64,000 nt of DNA from Magnolia sinica (lineage: Eukaryota; Streptophyta; Magnoliopsida; Magnoliales; Magnoliaceae), in contig NC_080584.1 of NCBI RefSeq assembly GCF_029962835.1, forward strand, positions 80,752,862 through 80,816,861, written 5' to 3'. A program made the position numbers and the translations under genes. Positions 12,787-59,966 of this stretch are shown here, in pieces (within the stretch, counting starts at the first letter, position 1; each line of letters starts with the position of its first letter). The notes beneath the pieces were generated by a model. That model worked only from the letters and a program-made list of their open reading frames with translations. It did not search any database and was not told the origin of the DNA.

Positions 12787-12820
<34 letters not shown>
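12787..12820. repeat. (AT)n microsatellite at the left MULE boundary
   Basis: An uninterrupted AT run ends exactly where the inverted end GGGAAAAGGTAC begins. The matching right end also abuts an AT run (23903-23924). Because the target is itself repetitive, the expected 9-bp target duplication cannot be read. Confidence 0.85.
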
Positions 12821-12822
<2 letters not shown>

Positions 12823-13093
12823 GAAAAGGTACTATACGCTCGACCTTACCATAGCACTCCGTAAGGTCGAGCGCTGTCAACTTGCTAGCCGTCGGATGGA
12901 GAAGTTTGAAATCAACGGCTTGAGTTAAGACGGGATTTTCCCGTGAGAGACCGGTCGTTCCGGTTACATGGAATCCCAACCCCTGCAACCTTCTCTCTAT
13001 CGCCCTCATTACCAGCCGTCTCTCTCCCTCAATCCCTGCCACGAGCGACTTCCTCGTGCAGCCCTCTCTCCGCCACCAGCAACGTTCGCCTCC

Positions 13094-13133
<40 letters not shown>

Positions 13134-13345
13134 CGGCACCACCAGTCGCGGCCGCCTCCACCTCTCTCTCCCTCCTCTCCCTCAATCGGTACCGCCAGCC
13201 GCGAGTCCGCGATCGCCTCCACCTCTCTCTCCTTCATTCCCTACCACCACGCCGTGCAGCCTCAGATTACAGGTAAGACCCCTACCACCACGCTGTGCAG
13301 CCTCGGATTGAGCCTTACAGGTAAGGCCCCTGTATTTTGGTTTTG
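12821..13345 (+). repeat. Left terminal inverted repeat of the MULE
   Basis: It starts at GGGAAAAGGTAC. A perfect 13-bp hairpin, CGCTCGACCTTAC (12837-12849) with GTAAGGTCGAGCG (12861-12873), lies near the tip. Then come GACCGGTCGTTCCGGTTACA, a CT-rich tract (13087-13130) and two strong splice donors, ACAG|GTAAGA (13272) and ACAG|GTAAGG (13320). It carries about 100 bp (12990-13085) missing from the right copy. The pyrimidine-rich run plus donors looks like a transcribed 5' leader exon. Open frames in it are low-complexity and not genes. Confidence 0.8.
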
Positions 13346-13539
13346 TTTTTTTTTTTTTCCAGATTGAGATGCTCTGGATCATGTGTTTGATATATTTCTA
13401 GTGTTTGGACAATGAAAATACACATGTTTTGGTGATTCCGCAATAATGCGGTCAAGCTTCTGTGACAAACGGAATCTCCACAGCCATGGGCCGGGGTTCC
13501 AAGTTCCATTAACATCAACAAGAATAATTTGTATGCAGG

Positions 13540-13620
13540 TTTTTTTTTTTTTTTTCTGAATGTGGAGTGGCTGCATGTTTTCTCATAACCATCAATTAGC
13601 AATCATGAAGAATTTGCAAT
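13540..13620 (+). repeat. Inner inverted island shared with 23105-23185
   Basis: CTGAATGTGGAGTGGCTGCA and CATAACCATCAATTAGCAATC at the left match the reverse complement of 23105-23175. This shows the two ends shared homology further inward before the DNA between diverged. The original inverted repeat was therefore probably 800 bp or more. Confidence 0.75.
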
Positions 13621-14345
13621 CCTGAAGAATGTATATATAAAAAATTTTTCCTGAAATTTCACAAAAACATCATAAATCAATAGATTAGGCCTCATCCATG
13701 TTTCAATTCATGTTTGGAGAGTAAGATTGCAAGTAATTTGGTAGAAATTTTGGAAAATTTGAAATTTCCCAAAATTTTCCTAAATCAGGCCACTTGCCCT
13801 CAAATCTCGAAATTGAAGGCTCAAAATCTTATTCTGGTTATTTGATGATCACACAATTATTGGATGTTTAAACTAACAAGTGGCCACGAATCAGAGGTTA
13901 GGTTATTCAACCAACCTGAATTTGGGACTGACTACGGGACAGTGGGTTCGATAATTTAGTCAGTTTAATTTGAGTTAATGTATGTCACATGTACAATTTG
14001 AGCATCTGCATATCAACTGTCATATTCTGCCATAGGATCAAATGACTCCACTACCTTCTCTCTCTCTCTCTGTTTTTTTTTTTTTTTTTTTTTTTTAAAT
14101 GCTTGAATGAGAGGCATGTGGAATCTATTTGGGTGACCATAGTTCCCAAGGGTGATGAGATGTGCTACAAAACAGTTCTCATCTGACTTGTGATTCCGGG
14201 TGGAAGAATTAAAAAAATGAAAAGAAAGAAGAAGAGCAAATGCCCATTTAATGCAGGTTCTGTTTTCCATGCTGCCCAAACAACAGGTGTATTGTGCTCC
14301 CAATGACAATTTGGCTCATACAACCAAATTGTTAAGATAGAGGTT

Positions 14346-14450
14346 TGCTAGCTCCACATGTGGCAACCTGGCATTTGGGTTGGCTGCTTGAGGTATGAAT
14401 GAAGTTTAGCCCAACATGTGACAACCTAGCATTTGGGTTGCCTGCTTGAG
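14346..14450 (+). repeat. Tandem duplication, period 58 bp
   Basis: CATGTGGCAACCTGGCATTT followed by GGGTTGGCTGCTTGAG (14357-14392) recurs as CATGTGACAACCTAGCATTT and GGGTTGCCTGCTTGAG (14415-14450), with three base differences. Confidence 0.8.
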
Positions 14451-14466
14451 CTTTTTTTTTTTTTTT

Positions 14467-14519
14467 AGATCATAAAAAGAGGCCAAGAGCCACATGTCTA
14501 AGGAAGTTTTATATGTCAG

Positions 14520-14520
<1 letters not shown>
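14467..14520 (+). repeat. Displaced scrap of the transposase exon
   Basis: 14467-14492 matches transposase exon positions 15246-15271 at 25 of 26 bases (the part encoding DHKKRPRA). Right after it, TCTAAGGAAG and AAGTTTTATATGT also occur at 15192-15216 in swapped order. It lies about 0.8 kb upstream of the source, outside any open frame. Confidence 0.65.

Positions 14521-14524
<4 letters not shown>

Positions 14525-14564
<40 letters not shown>
14525..14564. repeat. (CT)n microsatellite
   Basis: A 40-bp pure CT tract in the leader intron of the MULE transposase. Confidence 0.9.
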
Positions 14565-14566
<2 letters not shown>

Positions 14567-14919
14567 GTTTCCACTAGTCTTATGTTTTGAAAACAGAATA
14601 GTTATTGCTTTCTCCTGATTAGTGATTAATTGGGCTGATTCAAGGGTTACTTCATCATTATGTTTCTACAATTAAATAATTTTTTTTTGCATGCTCATTG
14701 ATTTCAATTCCTAAAATTATATAGAAGAGAGTAATTTAATACTTTTGTAGAATATGCCAATATGATTTACTAGATTAAGCTAAGGGTTGTTATTGTTTTT
14801 TTTTCTTTTAATATATTTTTTCTTCTTCATTTATAAATAGTAATTTTTGTGCCCTCACATTTATTTCGTAGCTTTTGATTAACCGAATTTATGTTTACTT
14901 TGAACTTGTAGTTGGGGAA

Positions 14920-17356
14920 ATGGAGTCACAACCTAATGCAGGTGTAGAGAATCATAATGGACGCCAGACAAATCATAATGAACACCAGACAAATCATAAT
15001 GAAGAAACAATCTCACATCCATATGATTTCATTCCAGAAGCACCTAAGGAAGTGAAACCAATAGTTGGTATGGTGTTCATTTCTGAAAATGTTGCATATG
15101 ATTTCTACAATGAATATGCTAGATGGTGTGGATTTAGTATACGAAAAGGTTCAACGCGGAATAGTATGAAAACAGGTGAAACAATTATGCGAAGTTTTAT
15201 ATGTTCTAAGGAAGGGTATCGACATCGCAAGCATATAGAAGCAACAGATCATAAAAAGAGACCAAGAGCCATGACAAGATGTGATTGCAGGGTAAAGATT
15301 GTAGTTCACAAAAATGGATCAGATAGATGGGAAGTTAAGACATTTGTGGAAGCACATAGTCACAATTTAATGAGTCCAAGTAAGGTTCATTGTTTACGAT
15401 CACATCGACATTTTACAGATTCTCATAAGGTTGTCATGGATAACATGAGAAAAGCAGGTATTGGCGCAGCTAAAGTGTTAAATTTTTTTACAAATGAAGC
15501 TGGAGAACCTGAGAAAATGGGTTTTATTGATGAAGATGCAAGAAATGCTCTAAAAATTCAAAGGCGTGACAAACATGGCAAAAGTGCTCAAGAGTTGCTT
15601 CTTTACTTTCAAAATAAACAGAGGAATGATGATAATTTTACTTATGCAATCCAAATTGACAATGAATGTAGATTGACATCTTGTTTTTGGGCAGATAATA
15701 TTTCAAAAATAGACTATGAAGCTTTTGGTGACGTTGTATGTTTTGACACAACATACAAGACAAATGAATTTGATATGCCTTTTGGTCCATTTGTCGGAGT
15801 CAACCACCATAAGCAATCGATCTTGTTTGGTGCCGGGCTTCTGTTTGGTGAAACCATTGAAGATTTCGAATGGTTATTTCAATCATGGTTACAAGCTATG
15901 GGTGGGAAGCTTCCAAAGGCCATAATCACAGATCAGGATCCAGCAATTGCTGCTGCAATTGCAAGTGTATTTCCGAATACCGAGCATAGGTTGTGCATGT
16001 GGCACATTGTTCAGAAGCTTCCAGAGAAGTTAGGTAAAGTAATTAATGAGGACCCATCATTCAACACTGATTGGAGAAATTGTGTATATATGTGCGATGA
16101 GGAAGCCGAATTTGATGCATTATGGTCGAAAATGATTGTAGATTATAATCTTGAAGAAAATAAATGGTTACAAGATTTGTACACGATACGTAAAATGTGG
16201 ATTCCAGCTTATGTCAAGAAAACATTTTATGCAGGGATGTCAACGACACAACGGAGTGAAGGTATGAATGCCTTCTTTGATTATTTTGTAAGTCATAAGT
16301 CAACGTTATTAGAATTTGCAGAAGGATATGATCGCGCTTTACAAAAACGTCGGCATAATGAGTTGAAATCGGATTGTGACACTTTATATAGTATACCTGT
16401 AGCAATAACCTCAATTGATATTGAAATAGAGATGGCAAAAATTTATACAAGAGAAGTATTTTATGACTTTCAAGTAGAAGTGAAGGCAAGTGCTTTACTT
16501 GTTAATAAGTTGGTAGTAAGGGAAGGACCATTAAGTAAATATAATATATTCGACTATAGAAGGAATGATAAAATGTATACAATTATTTGGAACCATGATG
16601 AACGGTTCGGTTCTTGTACTTGTCAGAGCTTCGAATTTCGTGGGATTGTTTGCAGGCATTTATTAGTTGTGTTTAAGGAAGAATCCATCATAAAAATGCC
16701 TTTTCATTATATACTTAAAAGGTGGCCGAAATGCGAAAGAAAAAAATAAAAGTGACTCAACTCCTCTGTCTTCAAACATTGATGAGTCAACCATCTTGGG
16801 GCGCAATAAAATGTCTCGTATGATGAACTATTTAATAAATGAAGGAACGAGGACTCCAGAAATAATGGAACCTGTGTTATCAGCTTTAGAAGATTTGGTT
16901 GCAAATGTTCGTCAAAAATGTGGAGTCGAAGAAGAAACTAGTATTGACAAGAATGTTGAGGGTGGTGAAAGCAATCTATTGTTCAATGCACATTCTAAGA
17001 ACTCTTACGTAGTACTTGATCCGATGGTTGTTAGTACTAAAGGCCGAACGAGTAAAAGATATAAATCTGGCAGGGAGGAGAATAGTAAGTTATGTCGTGG
17101 GTGTAACAAGTGGGTTATTGGGCATGATAAACGAAATTGTCCTATATATAACCAACTTGATAATGCATCTGAAGAAGCCAGGTATATATTTTTTTCTTGT
17201 ATTTTTATTTGATTTCTTACATACATTGCATTATTTTAAACTACATTCATTATCTCCACAGTTATGGCAGTAACGTTGAAAGAGGAAAGGGAAAAGCAGT
17301 TGGTAGGCCAAGAGGAAAAAATATAGTACAGGGTCGTGGTAGGATGTTAAATCAAG
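14920..17356 (+). CDS. FAR1/FRS-type MULE transposase
   Basis: The ATG at 14920 (AAATGG context, just after the acceptor-like TTGTAG) opens a 609-codon frame. Residues 52-150 form the FAR1 zinc-finger DNA-binding domain with C95, C121/C123 and H146/H148. Residues 270-450 are the MULE DDE domain: D276 (CFDTTYKTN), D338 (ITDQDPAI), C359-H362 (CMWH) and E447 (TTQRSEGMN). A SWIM zinc finger C566-x-C568-x9-C578-x-H580 follows. The frame stops at 16747. A continuation one base out of phase (SDSTPLSSN, then MSRMMNYLINEG) is open to the donor at 17181, and exon 17262-17356 adds GRPRGK. The shift lies at a run of seven A (16740-16746), so one extra A would explain it. The continuation has a zinc knuckle CRGCNKWVIGHDKRNC. 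Lying between the MULE ends, it is more likely a transposase than a domesticated FRS light-signalling factor. Confidence 0.9.
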
Positions 17357-17870
17357 GTAATTAAAAAATAACTATCAAGGCATTTATTAATGAATGCTTA
17401 ATATATACTTTTGATTTTCACGTACTTATATAATCTCACATGATTAGATTGATCGGTACCAAAGGCATGGTGTCTTAAATGTCTACAAGCTTGCGCCATC
17501 GGCTACATGTACGAATTCTAACCCTTTTATTAAAACAATAACTTAAATATATGTTCTTTTCCTTTTGATAACTACATTTTTTTGGTTCTTTTCCTTTCCA
17601 TGCATATAGTTAAGTTTCAGTGGATGTATAACTGAAAATTTTTCTGGTCATTTTGTATGCAGGAATAACTTGAAATTGTTTACTAAGAAGATACCTATTA
17701 TAGATTACGGAAGATTGAAGCATCCACTACTCTTAATGTTGACGATGTGGATTGATTTCATTTTCATGGCAATAACGTGCATTTTTTATTTTTATATTTT
17801 CATATTCTTATTATAAAATATTTGCGTGCATGTTTCAAGGACAGTGAAACATTCAACTATTGTTGATCGG
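17357..17870 (+). other. 3' region of the transposase gene, last exon unclear
   Basis: After the donor at 17357 a frame reading DRYQRHGVLNVYKLAPSATC runs from about 17451. It looks like a plausible C-terminal tail, but the ATTAG acceptor before it gives a stop in the phase left by the previous exon. The rest is AT-rich 3' flank. Confidence 0.4.
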
Positions 17871-17959
17871 TGTTTTAAGGTCGTTGAAATTTTGAATAAC
17901 ATTTTCTTTTTTCAAATAACATACATAGAAGTAAATAAGTGAGAAATATTAATTGACTT

Positions 17960-18370
17960 GGTATGATTGCAAGATTTTGTGCTTTCCCTTGTCTTTCATA
18001 GACCGGAACAATCCAATTTATGATTTTACAGTCAGTTGTACATATCCCTCCCTTGGGCTTTGTTCCCTCCAACATCATTGCACTTGCATCGTAGAAAAAG
18101 CTATCATTCATAACCATACTCTAATGGAACTTATCCCCACGGCCCATTGAAGCCATTGAATATCTTCTGGGTTTCATCCAACCCACCATAGAAATAGCTG
18201 TCATTCACCCCCGTCTGTTCACCTCCACCATATTGTAGACCATTCTCCTTGCTGTAGCTGATCTGGTTGCAGCTCCCATCAGAAGAACTACAGTTATTCT
18301 CCCCTCCAAGCATGTAAGCTCCATCTTTCATTTGATATGAGTCAATACGTCTCTTGTTTGTCAAGGATGG
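17960..18370 (-). pseudogene. Captured host-gene fragment, antisense inside the MULE
   Basis: On the minus strand, 18364-18131 reads RRIDSYQMKDGAYMLGGENN and NDSYFYGGLDETQK. Further on, about 18117-18000, it reads NDSFFYDASAMMLEGT. Composition is typical of a plant nuclear protein with Ser/Asn/Gly-rich linkers. I cannot name it. Stops separate the pieces, there is no start or gene context, and a related scrap lies at 20190-20260. Capture of exons by the MULE is the simplest reading. Confidence 0.5.
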
Positions 18371-18654
18371 GCAATTTTTTTCTTCAAAAAGGATTCTTCA
18401 AATTGAGCATAGATGTTCCTCATCGCTTGTGAGTTCATCAGCTAGAATGATCACTTCACTAGCTGTTTGTAGCTTTATCCATGTATTCAGTTAGAAAGCC
18501 AATGTATGTAAAACAGATCTGCAGTCTAACTTTTATGCTTATTACAAGTAATCAAACAAGTTTTATGTGTGATATTTATGTTAAGGAATTGATCAGTAAT
18601 TGTATTTATTGTTTGGCTGTCGACATCTCTGTTTAACCTTTTGCTCATACTATG

Positions 18655-19060
18655 AAATTTGCTGAGTTTAGTTCAGTGTTGATTCAATTCAGTGCACTGA
18701 TTCTCTAAGGCTGTGTTTGGAACTTTGGATATGCAAGTGATTTGAATTACAAACACAATCAATAAACAATAGAATTGTAACTAAATTTCTATGTTTAGTT
18801 CACTATCAATTTAGTTTAGAACACTGATTCTACTGAGACTGCATTTAGATACACAACTGATAAACACTCATCCAATCAATAAACGACCTTTTTCTAAGTA
18901 ATTGGCTTAGTTCAGATTTCTATCAATTTGATTAAGCACACTGATTTCATAAGGATGCATTTGGAACTTCCTTTATGAAACCAAGTGGAATTGCAAACGC
19001 TCACCCAATTGAATTAGTTTGGTTGTTTCCACTTCACTGAGTAATTAATGCAATTGAATT
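18655..19060 (+). repeat. Degenerate tandem repeat, about 120 bp, three units
   Basis: ACTGATTCTCTAAGGCTGTG (about 18697), ACTGATTCTACTGAGACTGC (about 18822) and ACTGATTTCATAAGGATGCA (about 18939) head similar units containing T(G/A)TTTGG(A/T)A and a CAATCAATAAAC or CACCCAATTGAATTAG tail. Confidence 0.55.
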
Positions 19061-20170
19061 AGTTGGCACTGCCAGATTCAGCCTACTTTTTGTTTTTTTG
19101 CAGATTTCTTTTTGATGGCCTTGTTTTTCTAGTTACTGAAAAAAAGTATTCATACTTATAATTATGACAAAAAATTTGCTTGTAGTGTATCCAGTATCAG
19201 TAGGAAATTTATTCCACTGGTTCCTTGTTTTCTTGCATTTTTTTATTCTGTCATTGGGTTCAGTTAGAAAAGTAGAATTAAAAGAGTGGGGGAACAAAGG
19301 AAATTTGTTTTGCCATATGAACCTGGTGATGGTCCTGTGGAATGTTCTTGCCAAATTAAGATTCAAGCTCACAGCATGACCCATTGATGAAATTTCGAGA
19401 TTGTTTCCAATTGATTTACCCACAGTTTTTGCTTGGATCAGCCCATATATTGACGTGTGACCCTTATGACCCACCCCTGTTGGGGACAGGATCATAAATA
19501 GGAGGCTCCTAGGGTATCTCTTGGAGAACCACTTTCAGTTCTCATTCCTACAAATGTATTTGCAGCATATGCCATACATTAGCAAATGTCTGTTAACCTA
19601 TCTCTTACATGCACCCAACATTTCCACTATGAGTAGTGTCTACTCTTGGCTCAAAATCCCATGTGAGAACAATAGGTGGACAGCTAAAAGCTTACCATTG
19701 AATTTCCATAAAGATAAAAATACTTAAATGGTGAACTAAAAATATCTAACAATTTTAAAAAAAATGATGGAGAAACCTTGTGAAAACAATTTGAGGTGCC
19801 AGGAAACTTTAAAAGGCTCGATGGAGGTTTTAATTTATAAGATGTATCTAGAAAGTCCTGGGAAAACTAATGGATCTCATGTTAGTGTATATGAGGCTTT
19901 CATGGAATCCTAATGTAGGTGGTACACATTCCCATCCATGTGTCAGCTGCTAAGTGACTTAAGAATGAGTTAAAACCAGTGTGTGATCAAGTTAATTCCA
20001 TCCAAGGATAATGGACCTCATGGTTACGAGACTTGATCCAATCCTCCAATGGGAATATTCAATTTAGCCTATCACTAGTATTCATGGACAAAGTGAACAT
20101 CTACAGTCCTTTGTGATGAAGGGCTTATGCAATAAGATGCTTGATAGTGCATGTGTGTGCAATCCGATCC
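19061..20170. other. MULE interior without recognisable genes
   Basis: Several short open frames occur on both strands but none has a domain or shows splice context. It may be diverged captured DNA. Confidence 0.4.
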
Positions 20171-20189
20171 ATCCATCAGGTGGGCCCAA

Positions 20190-20260
20190 CCATGTAAAAG
20201 CTCTTGTTTGTACCCTCCAACATCACTGCACTTGCATCATTAAGTATCCCATTACTGCAT
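20190..20260 (-). pseudogene. Second copy of the DASAxMLEGT gene scrap
   Basis: The minus strand reads NDASAVMLEGTNKS, matching DASAMMLEGTK at about 18100-18060. At the DNA level CCCTCCAACATCA(C/T)TGCACTTGCATC is shared by both places. The same host exon was therefore either captured twice or duplicated inside the element. Confidence 0.55.
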
Positions 20261-20399
20261 GGAATAGTGCTAATCACCTCCTTAATCTCATCATTTCTTC
20301 TATTTCGTTTGCATTCACAATAGTTAGAAATGATGCCCTGTTTTAAATGTTTCCACCCATTTGTCTGAAAGATTGTCTGCTTCAGGAACATGTATTGAA

Positions 20400-20982
20400 T
20401 AATGAGAAGGTGATGGCAGCTGTGGAAGCAAGGGTCGGCAGTTGCGGAAGCAAGGGTCGGCCGTTGCTTTGTCCAAGAAGATGCTAAGAGAGCTCCAGAG
20501 CTAACTCGCTGCCTGCCATCATCATCTAAACTGCAGTCTGATGCATCTGGTAATGATGCAGCAAGCAGGCCAGATCAGCCTGCCCCAAGTCTCATGCCTA
20601 TTAACTGGAATCCTGGCAATTCAAATCTACAGGCTGACACAAGATGGTGGCTCCAGTTACAACCCAATCACAAGGATTTCACATATGAAGGTCTAGATGC
20701 CTTGGAGGCCAAGATTGAACAGTTGAGAGATGGTGAGGTAAACCCCACTTCTAAGCTTCAGCAGGCTCCACTTACATCTGTAGATGATGATGTTGGTCTT
20801 AAAAAGAACGGTCGCTCATCTTTGTAGTTGAATTGGAGGGTGTCGGCCCCTTGCTTGAAGCATGATTCTGATGTAAGAGTGCAAGAGTTGAGGGATGTAA
20901 ACAAGCAGACACTGCAGCCGCTCAAGCCCAAGTTGTGTGTGGGTCAATACGGATATTGGGATGATAAATTCATGGATTGGCA
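20400..20982 (+). pseudogene. Captured fragment of a conserved plant protein gene
   Basis: One frame reads LTRCLPSSSKLQSDASGND and then QADTRWWLQLQPN and LDALEAKIEQLRDGEVNPTS until a stop at 20825. After it the reading NWRVSAPCLKHDSDVRVQEL resumes. An upstream piece (LSKKMLRELQ) is in another frame. The tryptophan-rich block and the heptad-like LDALEAKIEQL look like a host coding exon of a family I have seen but cannot name. The changes of frame and the lack of a start mark it as a broken capture. Confidence 0.55.
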
Positions 20983-21030
20983 GATTTCTACAATGAATAT
21001 GCATATGATTTCTACAATGAATATGCATAT
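20983..21030 (+). repeat. Perfect 24-bp tandem duplication matching the FAR1 exon
   Basis: Two adjacent identical 24-mers begin GATTTCTACAATGAATATGC. Positions 21001-21026 are identical over 26 bp to 15094-15119 of the transposase exon (encoding AYDFYNEYA). Confidence 0.85.
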
Positions 21031-21486
21031 GAAGCAATTCTCTGCTATGAACAAGATCAAGAAAATGGCCCTCAGAGTGGTTCAAGTTGCTTGCTGGAAT
21101 TTGTACTTTATCTACAACTAGTTGAAGGCGAACTTAACCTCAACCCATTTTTAGAAGCATTTTGCCCTTGAAAAGCGAATTCAGCAGCATAAGAAGAAAT
21201 GAGTCCCATTTTTATTTTCTTTGATCAATCTGAATTTTATTAGAAAAGGAGTCAGTGATCTCCACTGTCATAGCCTTGTTTCAGCTTTCATCTTTTTAGA
21301 TCCTGCTTTTATGGATCTTAAAGGAAATATATTACAATAAATGTTATCTTGTTATTGTATAGATATGTCACTGTTATGTTTCCACAATGAACATGTCTGA
21401 CCGCATATTTATACAGATCCCTAGGGTCATCTGTCTCTCTGGTGTTGGGTATGGTCTATCAGGTCATGTACTAGCAATGGTAAAAG

Positions 21487-21665
21487 CACTACTATTGAAA
21501 AAAATTTTAACATTGGAAATAGCTACGGATTTTGACCATAGTTATTGATAGTATAGCCGTAGCACTAATTCTAGTTTTAGCTGCAAATGTAACTAATCTT
21601 AGAAACCGATGGCTACGTTATTAATTGCTACGGATTATAACCGTAGCTATAGGTGAAGTGAACAC
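21487..21665. mobile_element. CACTA-like terminus with subterminal repeats
   Basis: CACTACTATTGAAAA at 21487 is followed by inverted units GCTACGGATTTTGACCATAG and GCTACGGATTATAACCGTAG. This pattern is usual for CACTA ends. The opposite terminus was not identified. It lies inside the MULE. Confidence 0.45.
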
Positions 21666-23104
21666 TTTCTAGGCCGGCCACCCAGAAGCATGTGTTTTAT
21701 CATCCAAACCATCTATCTTCTTGTTCTATCACACAACGAAGTGTGATCCACTGCTTTATCATAGAGAACTTTTTCTTTCTCATGGTTCCTATGTAACTTG
21801 CTTCTGTTACATTTCTGACATCAACAAGTAGATCCAATTTCAAGAAGTATGCTTAGCATGATTAGGATATTTGCTAGAATCTCAGGTTAGGGAACAAGTG
21901 TTAACACTAGATACAATAATACAAGGCCACTAGCAATCTTCTGCCACTGTCCAAGTCAACAAGGTTACTGGCTTCACCAATTAAAAATACAAAACTGTTA
22001 GTAATTTGGATTGGGTAACCAGCTTCAAGTCCCAAGTTCGAGTCTGGTTCTCGAAGACATGCACCCGGATCCGATCGGGTTCAGGTGCCCATAGTTTCTT
22101 TGGATCTAGGTTATGAGTTGAATTTGAGACAAACAAGAGCATTTACATGGTTGGGCCCACCTGATGGATGGATCGGATTGCACACACATGCACTATCAAG
22201 CATCTTATTGCATAAGCCCTTCATCAAATTTACACAACTCAAGGAACATGATTGTAGGTCTAACCGCAACCATCCATTTTGATTCTTAGAAATCAGATTT
22301 CATCCAGACGAGAATAAGATCTTATAAAATCAAAATTTGGAATTTTCAATGTTTGAATGGACTATTCTAGTTTTCACAATTTGCAGACACCCAAAATCAT
22401 ATCCCAGATTAAAGATCCCTCTCTTTCAATCTTTTGCTTGTTTTCCACTAAATGTGAATTGTTGCAAATTTCTGTCAACTTTCTACAAGTCAACCATCAA
22501 GGGGTTAGGATCACCCAATCTGGAAAAAAAATTCTGATTTTTTACAAGATTTTTGTGACATTCACCATCTATAACAAGGTCCATTAGTTCATTAGTAGTA
22601 AACCCTGATGTAAGAATGTTGAGCATTGACAACCTTTGTGTTCATTATGGCTCAGATCCTCTCTCCTTTTATTGAAAATAAGAGGTATAATTTCTTACTT
22701 ATGACTCCCAATTCAAAGAAATTTCAATTTTTTTCCTGATAGTGAAATAAGCACACATCTCAACATCAAGAGTTTTGTTAGGCGAACACACGAGCATATT
22801 CGAAAAAAGGGGAGAAAGACAGAAAATTGTTGATATGAAGCATGAAATTTGTTGATTTTTAAGTAGGAAAAGAAAATTGGTGTTACATTTCTAACATTAA
22901 GAAATTTCCACATATGAAAATTCGATTTCAAAACTGACAGTAATTTGGACAGTAATTTGGAAAGCCATAGATTTGTACAATGGTGTTGGGCCAGTGGTCT
23001 GATCCCAATCGGGTGTGAACAGAGTCCTGATATGCTGGACAGTACAAGTGGAGGTCATGGTTTGGTATATAGACCATTGATCTCATGGGCCCCACCAAAG
23101 ATCA
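21666..23104. other. MULE interior, nothing recognised
   Basis: Mixed AT-rich sequence. AAGTTCGAGTCTGGTTCTCG near 22045 resembles a Pol III B box, but no A box or SINE boundary was found. ACAGTAATTTGGA is tandemly repeated at about 22937-22960. Confidence 0.4.
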
Positions 23105-23494
23105 AGGATGCCCAAAAATTTTTCATGATTGCAAATTGATGGTTATGAGAAAAAATGCAGCCACTCCACATTCAGCAGAAAGAAAAAGGATTGGAAGGTT
23201 GGAATTTCTAATCAGTGTGATATTTTAGAACATGATCCATCCATGGTAGCACCCATCAGGTCAACAGTCTGGATCCCTCATCCCTGAACCATGGGTCCAC
23301 TTGTATAAACATATCCCTGGCTCGAGGATAAAATAGTTCCTCCAAAATGACATATTTTACCAACAGAGCTGACTTAAATGAAAACTGCTGCATACCATTA
23401 CTTGGCACATCATGCACCATTTTCTTGCAAGATAGAAGTAATTTATCTTTTGATAAATCTTTAAAACCTAATGAAATACCAAAAAAACAGGGAA

Positions 23495-23704
23495 AAGACC
23501 AAAAAACAGAGGCCTTACCTGTAAGGCTCAATCCGAAGCTGCACAGCGTGGTGGTAGGGGTCTTACCTGTAATCTGAGGCTGCACATCGTGGTGGTAGGG
23601 AATGAAGGAGAGAGAGGTGGAGGCGGTCGCGGACTCGCGGCTGGCGGTACCGATTGAGGGAGATGAGGGAGAGAGAGGTGGAGGCGGCCGCGACTGGTGG
23701 TGCC

Positions 23705-23735
<31 letters not shown>

Positions 23736-23902
23736 GTGGAGGGGTTGGGATTCCATGTAACCGGAACGACCGGTCTCTCACGGGAAAATCCCGTCTTAAC
23801 TCGAGCCGTTGATTTCAAACTTCTCCATCTGACAGCTAGCAAGTTGACAGCGCTCGACCTCACGGAGTGCCATGGTAAGGTCGAGCGTATAGTACCTTTT
23901 TC
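23495..23902 (-). repeat. Right terminal inverted repeat of the MULE
   Basis: Read on the minus strand it follows the left end closely: GAAAAAGGTACTATACGCTC, the GACCGGTCGTTCCGG block, the CT tract, the GCCGCGAGTCCGCGA block and both ACAG|GTAAG donors. The tip hairpin has one mismatch. It lacks the internal block found at 12990-13085. Confidence 0.8.
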
Positions 23903-23924
23903 ATATATATATATATATATATAT
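23903..23924. repeat. (AT)n microsatellite at the right MULE boundary
   Basis: It directly abuts the right inverted end (CCTTTTTC|AT...). It is the counterpart of the tract at 12787-12820. Confidence 0.85.
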
Positions 23925-29216: not shown

Positions 29217-30000
29217 AAATCCTAAATTAGTTACTCATCCAAGATTGGATAGATTGCAATACTTTCATATTCTCATTTAAACGTTCACACCGAAAATCCG
29301 GCAGTATCTCCTCATGCCTCTCTAGATATGTTGATCTTCTGTTACATTCTGATGTCAAATATCTAAGTAATATGAAGATATTTGGCATTGGAAACGAAAC
29401 GGAAGAAACGTATCTAGAGAGAAATGAGGAGATGGACTGCGAATTAAGTATAAACATTTAAATAAATTATATGAAAGCATATTATTCATCTAACCTTGAA
29501 CTGTCTAAAATGGGACAATTTGAACGATTTCTATGCCACCAAAAATACACTATATATATATATATATCCACATAGAAATTCACAAATGGGTAATTAATTA
29601 TCTAACTCACATTCACAATTAAATCCTAAATTAATTACCCATCCAAGATTAGATACATTGTAATACTTTTATATTCTCATTTAAACGTCCACCTCGAAAA
29701 TTCGGTGGTATCTCCTCATGCCTCTCTAGATAAGTTGATCTTTTGTTACATTCCGATGCCAAATATTTAAGCAACGTGAAGATATTTAACATTGAAAATG
29801 AAATGGAAGAAACATATCCAGAGAGAAATGAGGAGATGGACCGCGGATTAGGTATGAACATTTAAATAGATTATATGAAAGCATATTATACATCTAACCT
29901 TGAACTGTCCAAAATGAGACAATTTGAGTAATTTCTATGCCACCAAAAACACCCTATATCTATGTATGGCCATATAGAAATCATCGAATGGGTAACTAAT
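29217..30000 (-). repeat. Direct tandem duplication, period 404 bp
   Basis: CCTAAATTAGTTACTCATCC at 29221 recurs as CCTAAATTAATTACCCATCC at 29625. The two units then run in parallel to about 30000 with scattered substitutions. Both keep an open minus-strand frame of 70-76 codons sharing RRSTYLERHEEI and RLNEN(M/I)KVLQ. The protein is unknown to me. The unit lies just upstream of the decayed hAT gene and may be its 5' flank. Confidence 0.75.
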
Positions 30001-39770: not shown

Positions 39771-42169
39771 GGCTTTTTGGTAAAACATAGTGTGGCTTAT
39801 AAGTTATGTGGCTTACTCATGTACATAATTGGTAGGCCCCCTTGGAATTAGAAACACAACACTTACGATTTTCTATATGGATGTTGTGTGAAATAATCAA
39901 TATAGAAACAAAAATTAAGATTCCTTATTTGTTTATATGAAAAAAAAAATCTTATAAACCAAGTAGGATGTTCCTTGTACTCTGATTTGAGTATATTTTA
40001 TATTAAGATGGGTTAGTTTAAACTCTACTGAATTTTCAGGATATTTAGTCCACAAAGTCCTGTTGGATAACAATAAGCAGTAAGAATCACCCAACTTATA
40101 AAATTCATAATTATAAAAGTAAAACTCTGATCAAGGTGATTCAAAATCCTGATAAAAAATAGACAAGTCCAAATTTAAATAAAAATAATTAAAAAAATCT
40201 AAATCTAATAGTCACTATACTAGTTCGGGGAGATAGTGTTGATTGGTTGGAATTCGTCTGTTCTGGATAGTCTAATTGTGGCAATTTTTAAAATATCTAT
40301 AATGGATAGAATAAATAAAATTTTTATTGAGATACAATGGATTTAAACTAGGATCTCCAGAAAAAATTTAAACCTAATTTGAAGTCTCAAAGTATAAGAA
40401 AATATGATAGAAACAGCGAATGTCAAACCAATAATCAATTTGTCAAAACTATTGTCATGTCGGTTCAACTAACATAGTTTTTCATTTTGATAATTATCTT
40501 TTTAACATTTTTAAATGAAGTAATTTAAAAAAAAAAAATCATTTGTTTCTAAACAAACTTCACTTTCGAATTTTAAATCTTCTATAGACTTCAATTTTTG
40601 ACAAAATTTTACATAATTATAAATTCATAAAAAAAAAAAAAAAACAAACTAGTAACTAAACCAGTGTTAGTGTGGCTATAATATTTATTTATTTATATTT
40701 TTGTTTGAAATGCTAATTTACGAATCTTGAGAACGGAATTTTATTTTAAGGGGGTAGAACATAACAAGTCGAAATTTTATGTGCGAGTTTAGGTATACGT
40801 AAGGATATATGATTACACTTTTTAAACTGTATACTTGTAGATCAATTAATTTTTCTGTAGTTTAACCTGAATATAACCATAGAGAGCACTTTTCAACCGC
40901 TGATTGATAGGATGAACCATCAAATAACCTAGTATTCTTATCCATATATTAAAACTAACCGTTGATATAAGCTATCACCATTAGATGAAGATATATAACT
41001 ATCCACTTTGAATTTGGATCACCCGATCAAAATAAACTAATTACCAAATCTTCACATCTGCTTGTCCGCATATCAAATCAAAATTTGAATTTGTTCATCT
41101 TATTCGTCACTTATAAATATGTTTAACTTAATGTCAAAAGTATGATATAAACATTTACATTTTACACTAATGAACTAATCATTTAAATCTAACAATTACA
41201 TTTCTAATATAAACTACATCCAAAAATCACTTTATACGTATCCGTTTATAAAACTGACCGTATAATAAACTGTAAATACGATTAATATCCTAAGCATCTA
41301 ATTACCTAAATTTCAGCCGTTCATCTAACCGTCAATCATGTTTGTATCCACCTAACGAACCATCGAAATATCAAAATAAAGTATTCATTCGAAAGATCAT
41401 AGAATATATATTAAAATTACCGGTTAGTTCTCACATGTAATATTGGTATAAGTTGTTTTAAATTACATATAGTTATAATCCATCAAAAAGACATCTGGAT
41501 CATTCTTGTGACATCAAGGCCCAAAATTAAATTGTTAACTAAGCATACAAAATGAAGGGAAACGGTGAAATTTGACTTAAAATGGAGTGTAAAGAAAAGT
41601 CATGTCTAAATCAAATAGTCTTTAAAAATGGTAATATGTGAAACAATGACCATGACACATTATATTATAATAATAATATAAAAATCAAATATAATATAGC
41701 ATGATTAGATTTATAAAAAAAATAAATTTCTCTTATCTGTAAGATGGGCCATGCGTAGTTCTCTTTAAAAAATATCAAATCATGTCCAGCATTATCATAC
41801 TTATATATATATATATAATTTTTCTCTTATTTGTAAGGTGGGCAATGCGTATTTCTCTTATTAACAGTCTATTTTCAAGGCAAATGTGTAGGCTATAGAT
41901 TAAAAATCCACATTTCGCCCTTGGATAATACTCTCTCTGCACTGCAATAGAACATTTCAATGGTCTTGATTACTGAAAACCTAGCCCACTTGTTAGAAGT
42001 GTCAACCCGCATATCAAAGGCTTGAGTTGTGCGTCCTATATTACCTTTTTATTTCCATGCTTTTCACGTGACATGATTGTCACTTCCAATGTCTTTAGTC
42101 TACCAGTCAGGATTGCACGTTCCATGAATTCGAGTGCAGATTCGGTGAGGCCGGAGAAATACCGACTTC
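39771..42169. other. Very AT-rich stretch, nothing recognised
   Basis: Long A and T runs, e.g. near 40527 and 40629, and a short (AT)n at 41803-41817. No domain-bearing frame, RNA gene or repeat boundary was found in 2.4 kb. The first 42000-42170 bp next to the hairpin cluster are less AT-rich. Confidence 0.5.

Positions 42170-44205: not shown

Positions 44206-44242
<37 letters not shown>

Positions 44243-59889: not shown

Positions 59890-59966
<77 letters not shown>

Follow-up and report, generated by a model that had tools for sequence, protein, structure and literature searches.

The window, a stretch of 64,000 nucleotides of Magnolia sinica DNA (C12:80752862-80816861; source genome 1.84 Gb, 127 contigs), contains a single Mutator-like element (MULE) at positions 12821-23902, with paired inverted ends, a transposase and a host-gene fragment. 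It belongs to a dispersed MULE family that, with high probability, inserts by cut-and-paste into short alternating AT, with a FAR1-type transposase and an odd, most likely 9-bp, stagger. Family ends mostly lie directly at AT tracts, and the AT on the two sides of an element is mostly in the phase left by an odd stagger. AT targeting by MULEs is an already published phenomenon, to which the window family adds one more case.

The element is delimited by the following features (window positions).

12789-12820, no strand: left AT tract of 32 nt, adjoining the element on the outside (AT-tract scan)
12821-13358, plus strand: left terminal inverted repeat (TIR) with the tip GGGAAAAGGTACTATACGCTCGACCTTACC (self-comparison; 41-end family alignment)
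12837-12873, plus strand: perfect 13-bp stem in the tip, 12837-12849 with 12861-12873 (by eye)
13544-13615, plus strand: inner inverted island, arm 1 (self-comparison)
23116-23187, minus strand: inner inverted island, arm 2 (self-comparison)
23481-23902, minus strand: right TIR, last base 23902 or 23903 (self-comparison, AT-tract scan)
23903-23924, no strand: right AT tract of 22 nt (AT-tract scan)

Two inverted blocks, 13094-13358 with 23481-23745 (265 nt) and 12824-13007 with 23717-23900 (184 nt), matched at 93% identity each. The TIRs span 538 bp on the left and 422 bp on the right, with an interruption by a length difference near a (CT)n part; long TIRs of this kind are a mark of MULEs. 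The arms of the inner island matched over 72 nt at 92%. Whether the element ends at 23902 or 23903 depends on whether a tip substitution or a one-base loss is assumed. Six perfect AT tracts of 12 nt or more occurred in the window (12789-12820, 23903-23924, 29551-29566, 41802-41817, 44211-44236 and 59893-59938); two abut the element ends and none lies inside it. The original prediction, one element with paired inverted ends, an inner island near 13540/23105 and AT on the outer sides only, was thus borne out within the window, and similarly paired relatives were present across the genome. The 13-bp tip stem is possibly a transposase binding pair.

A genome search with a 501-bp query from the element end gave 43 matches, from 40 scored of 397 candidates. 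The tip pattern, with up to three mismatches allowed, was present at 173 places (87 forward, 86 reverse), and the reversed pattern, used as a control, at none. The 23 loci examined (the window and 22 fetched ones) held 17 two-ended elements of 4.9-14.8 kb, with end repeats 87-100% identical within each element over 190 nt. Another 39 ends were chosen among 100 listed places of the 173 because the opposite terminus of an apparent element was listed as well: 37 belong to 19 pairs (one partner being in the first set), and two are same-strand ends on C16. Altogether, 36 element pairs were assembled, one of them (N10) doubtful, with ends 24.6 kb apart. The window copy (E01) has a 12.3-kb sister, E02, which is 99% alike. 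E07 and E15, both of 14.8 kb, are 99% identical and lie on different chromosomes, and E09, E12, E13 and E14 are derivatives of ~9.95 kb without transposase, 98-99% like E09.

Some ends (S17, S19, S20, S21 and S22) had no partner inside their fetched stretches in the first set, the S20 stretch stopping at a contig end. They would suit a chance composite, in which two unrelated solo ends merely face each other, and the original prediction had named many unpaired ends as a sign against one element; some were indeed unpaired, yet 36 pairs were assembled. Chance pairing was rejected as next to impossible on these pairs, on the identity of the end repeats and on whole elements 98-99% alike at different places. 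The family is real, well built and probably recently active. The two end repeats of E13 (L031-L032) fell into separate groups of the end tree, which was printed without support values; recombination or conversion between copies is a possible cause.

Perfect AT of at least 10 nt, beginning no more than 3 nt from the terminus, was found outside 73 of the 80 ends (38 of 41 in the first set, 35 of 39 among the further ends). The background, 0.16% of positions, was calculated over the remainder of the window and is therefore local, not genome-wide. Most copies lie within (TA)n, as is characteristic of microsatellite-targeting MULEs, and the search with the element end that had been proposed from the window alone confirmed both paired relatives and the suspected AT preference. 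The seven ends without such AT were the two of E10, a single one in each of E11, N6, N9 and N19, and one on C16; some of these adjoin (GT)n, (AC)n or the tip of another MULE.

MULE target duplications are 8-11 bp long, usually 9 bp, and within (AT)n their length is hidden. Since slippage by 2 nt leaves parity intact, the length class can still be read inside the repeat. We compared the base just outside the GGG at each end, read on its own strand. In an alternating AT target, an odd stagger makes these bases differ (A at one end, T at the other), while an even stagger, an even filler or AT that the element itself carries makes them equal. Among 36 scored pairs, 29 differed, four were equal (E07, E09, N2, N10) and three had a G outside (E16, N15, N16). 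Strict pairs, in which the tips retain their first G and pure AT runs for at least 9 nt on either side, differed in 19 of 23 cases (one-sided binomial p=0.0013), or in 19 of 22 without N10 (p=0.0004). The phases of these 22 pairs were A/T in eight and T/A in 11, and T stood at 23 of the 44 ends (permutation p=0.0013). Both phases being present, no phase was selected and the AT does not belong to the element as a fixed component.

Parity and phase also bear on other modes of insertion. For the guayule SaTar elements, a circular intermediate with microsatellite filler, recombining homologously into an existing microsatellite, was proposed as speculation, on the grounds of diverse flanking microsatellites and some flanks unlike a 10-bp duplication (PMC5907723). 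In the window family, the (GT)n or (AC)n that flanks E11 and N6 at one end, and elements sharing AT end to end, would agree with it. However, under recombination odd parity should not be in excess, except with filler mostly of odd length, and the excess in the strict pairs makes this route improbable; the usual 9-bp MULE duplication fits better. A shade less probable again is that the AT represents the element's own tails and tells nothing of the target. AT at 73 of 80 ends and the far shorter AT at the target paralogues of E05 (see below) speak for such tails, but a fixed base would then be expected beside the GGG, and A and T were about equally frequent, mostly one each per element. Moreover, a short AT or AC/AT run marks the junction in the E05 paralogues, with 12 nt of AT in the most similar of them, and neither end of E10 directly adjoins AT. 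Both origins are therefore disfavoured by parity and phase together. That an even stagger of 8 or 10 bp is the normal mode is very unlikely: the four equal strict pairs and the 10-bp duplications reported from guayule (PMC5907723) would suit it, the 19 differing pairs would not.

The E05 flanks, joined without the element, were used to look for empty sites. Other copies of the flanking sequence made up 38 of the 40 scored places (from 166 candidates), at 67-83% identity, and all 38 ran across the junction. The eight paralogues that were fetched were unbroken there. The closest (80%) had 12 nt of perfect AT and the other seven, more distant, had 3-8 nt within a mixed AT/AC stretch; the AT beside E05 itself measured 52 and 47 nt. 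These sites of another copy than the window's were single and uninterrupted, contrary to a separate insertion of the two ends, which had been named as a refuting outcome. A cross-comparison of the fetched flanks returned diffuse repeats, a duplication on contig C68 and the flank similarity of E06b, S20 and S21 (see below), and no empty site among these flanks.

The AT lengths of the E05 paralogues agree in direction with published sites. MuTAnT empty sites have a mean of nine TA repeats, against about fifteen per flank when occupied (PMC4486113), and TAFTA sites had 6-8 bp prior to insertion, as cited in PMC5907723. As the E05 sites are paralogues of one insertion, we only infer an AT expansion at insertion. 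About as likely as not is a fuller version, in which plain 9-bp cut-and-paste into AT itself starts AT growth, so that such MULEs would make microsatellites besides using them.

The transposase of the window copy lies in two parts.

14920-16746, plus strand: first open part, with FAR1, MULE and SWIM domains and the motifs FDTTY, ITDQD and QRSEG (Pfam, motif check)
16694-17182, plus strand: second part, in a different frame; by eye, its C-terminus has a zinc-knuckle-like motif (translation)

Pfam matches within 14872-16746 were FAR1 (1e-22), MULE (PF10551, 2.3e-32) and SWIM (2.5e-6), which places the element in the MULE superfamily and agrees with the FAR1-type transposase predicted between the ends. 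A PDB sequence search with the transposase gave no match. The open frame of the window copy starts at the ATG at 14920 and its continuation is in the other frame. It retains FDTTY, ITDQD and QRSEG, which we take to carry the catalytic residues of FAR1/Jittery-type transposases. Ten near-full and five partial transposase copies were found among the examined loci. In E02, E07 and E06a, no stop interrupts the 755 codons that precede the first apparent intron. All three motifs are also present in E02 and E07, while E06a has ITYQD, so that a catalytic residue was probably lost. The ratio of nonsynonymous to synonymous substitutions (dN/dS) was 0.23-0.61 in six comparisons among E02, E06a, E07 and S23.

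Several observations weigh against insertion into AT with an odd stagger by this transposase. The equal strict pairs E07, E09, N2 and N10 require a duplication of 8 or 10 bp, an indel at the junction or wrong pairing. In five pairs the first base of the tip is altered (the window copy E01, and E13, E15, N17 and N18). Read as substitutions, all five differ; read as one-base deletions they become equal, and this least favourable count gives 19 of 28 (p=0.044). None of the 36 pairs offered a target duplication legible outside AT, and E10, the only one of them without AT directly at either end, had no clear 9-bp repeat. The empty sites of E05 are not alleles, and most have very little AT. Finally, the transposase frame of the window copy is broken, and dN/dS was 0.55-1.18 in four comparisons involving the decayed copy E06b.

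Under the preferred reading of odd-staggered cut-and-paste, the FAR1-type transposase would cut short alternating AT with an odd stagger, most likely of 9 bp, and gap filling would leave 9 bp of AT duplicated on either side. At many insertions the flanking AT would then lengthen greatly, during repair or by later slippage. The large copies would carry the transposase, the others being internal-deletion derivatives mobilised in trans. An ancestor of the window copy and of two sisters would have acquired part of a host gene by capture at the DNA level.

This captured piece lies in the right half of the element.

20114-20211, plus strand: 98-bp inverted repeat arm next to the captured fragment, other arm at 22129-22226 (99%)
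20288-20954, plus strand: captured host-gene fragment covering the apparent end of an intron and an exon, 94% identical to part of C5:5142150-5142850

The two 98-bp arms bracket the fragment. By eye, its alignment with the C5 DNA covers an apparent intron end, a splice acceptor and an exon, and it ends abruptly on both sides, inside the 701 bases fetched. Since intron-like sequence is aligned, capture was most likely at the DNA level. In the window copy, 22 nt are inserted in the fragment, which also contains an in-frame stop. A genome search with the 137-aa frame at 20414-20824 gave five matches, with all nine candidates scored. This frame was found in E01, E02 and E03 at 98-100%, inside a 212-aa open frame on C5 at 95%, and on C3 at 55%. 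The direction, from C5 to the element, is drawn from the longer open frame at C5, near which none of the 100 listed tip places, of 173, lies; an element may nonetheless be present there. The capture most likely predates the separation of E01, E02 and E03. The 137-aa frame of the window had no Pfam match and no PDB sequence match.

The claim of a cargo of gene fragments stood for this one fragment. Much of the remaining interior is common to many family members, which makes it family sequence and not recent capture, and an interior consisting wholly of captured genes was rejected. Four open frames of E07 had no Pfam match. One of these frames (L021:1658-1858) had a weak NCBIfam match to fabD, ACP S-malonyltransferase (16 bits against a cut-off of 260.9, E 0.0065), and none in a PDB search; it is perhaps another captured exon. 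A Pack-MULE, strictly, is an element without transposase. The predicted likeness to a transposase-bearing Pack-MULE therefore holds for the captured host-gene fragment between MULE ends, with its apparent intron sequence, while the transposase kept in the element excludes a Pack-MULE in the strict sense.

Neighbouring elements may share one AT tract. E06 consists of two family elements in a single tract, and end-to-end, non-nested arrays sharing a microsatellite, another trait of microsatellite-targeting MULEs, were seen by examples only. At L017-L019 (C10:36410117-36435411), two elements stand end to end with one AT tract between them; the left end of the second is mostly lost, with an inverted tip scrap in place. 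Beside E06, a 208-aa open frame (L017:1-624) resembles an ABC transporter by eye, and E06 may have inserted in or next to a gene. Across the AT of E06b, S20 and S21, a different MULE-like end, GGAAA.GGT.CTA...GGTCG..CTCATGGGAACTTCCC, faces away (right flank of L019, left flanks of L042 and L043), and these outer flanks are ~83% alike. This end apparently belongs to a second AT-associated family. The copies at L042 and L043 (contig C68) are ~91 kb apart, and their left flanks, 93% identical, mark a duplicated segment. N6 (L056) and E11 (L028) are flanked by AT at one end and by (GT)n or (AC)n at the other, and their outside bases still differ; this could come from insertion where the parts of a compound microsatellite meet, or from subsequent drift of the repeat.

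TA-targeting autonomous MULEs are known, namely MuTAnT, SaTar/AgS-MULE, TAFT and Micron. How MULEs enter microsatellites has been argued in two ways, by a TA-specific transposase with later expansion or by recombination of a circle (PMC5907723), and the route is disputed because the repeat masks the target duplication. With the parity rule, the insertion mode can be tested on assemblies alone, and here the rule favours the transposase; if it is true, every published microsatellite-targeting MULE family can be re-tested by parity. This test is the part of our analysis that goes beyond the published work compared. No earlier use of a parity, phase, odd-number or register argument was found, in a search that left most of the subscription literature outside, so priority is not established; in the consulted portion of the MuTAnT paper (PMC4486113), the parity argument was likewise not found.

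MuTAnT/AutoMuTAnT of Medicago truncatula has a Jittery-like transposase and inserts mostly into (TA)n; of 218 copies, 14 lie outside perfect (TA)n, and for these 9-nt duplications are indicated (PMC4486113). The window family shares with it this type of transposase, the (TA)n insertion, a terminal G run, foldback ends and shorter TA in empty sites (PMC4486113), and its odd stagger fits the 9-nt duplication. AutoMuTAnT is 4.9 kb long and 90% of MuTAnT copies are 200-300 bp (PMC4486113), against 11.1 kb for the window element. The tips also differ: compared by eye with the published mask, the MuTAnT search tip GGGGTTTGCTAGAACA does not correspond to GGGAAAAGGTACTATACG of the window family, and the G run alone is common, so terminal sequence does not make the family part of MuTAnT.

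TAFT/TAFTA of maize and Micron of rice also insert into (TA)n, a likeness by description and not by sequence (PMC5907723), and AT expansion beside the element was described for TAFTA, as cited there. Micron is non-autonomous and ~0.4 kb in size (380 bp published), unlike the 11.1-kb window element with its transposase. The pineapple Ac-mMITEs prefer (TA)n, form clusters sharing AT and have 9- or 10-bp duplications outside microsatellites (PMC8449440). They are short miniature inverted-repeat transposable elements (MITEs) for which their authors found no autonomous partner, whereas the window family has transposase copies.

SaTar/AgS-MULE are microsatellite MULEs of guayule, rice, sorghum and citrus; AgS-MULE1 is autonomous, 5.3 kb long, with 400-bp TIRs and microsatellite flanks (PMC5907723). 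Microsatellite sites and non-nested end-to-end arrays are shared with the window family (PMC5907723). For guayule, recombination was proposed and 10-bp duplications were given (9 or 10 bp in citrus; PMC5907723), while the window family is mostly of odd parity, which does not fit the 10-bp reading. Unlike SaTar/AgS-MULE, the window family reaches 14.8 kb and includes three members with a host-gene fragment and its likely donor; it thus offers large open-frame transposase relatives together with the likely DNA donor of the captured fragment.

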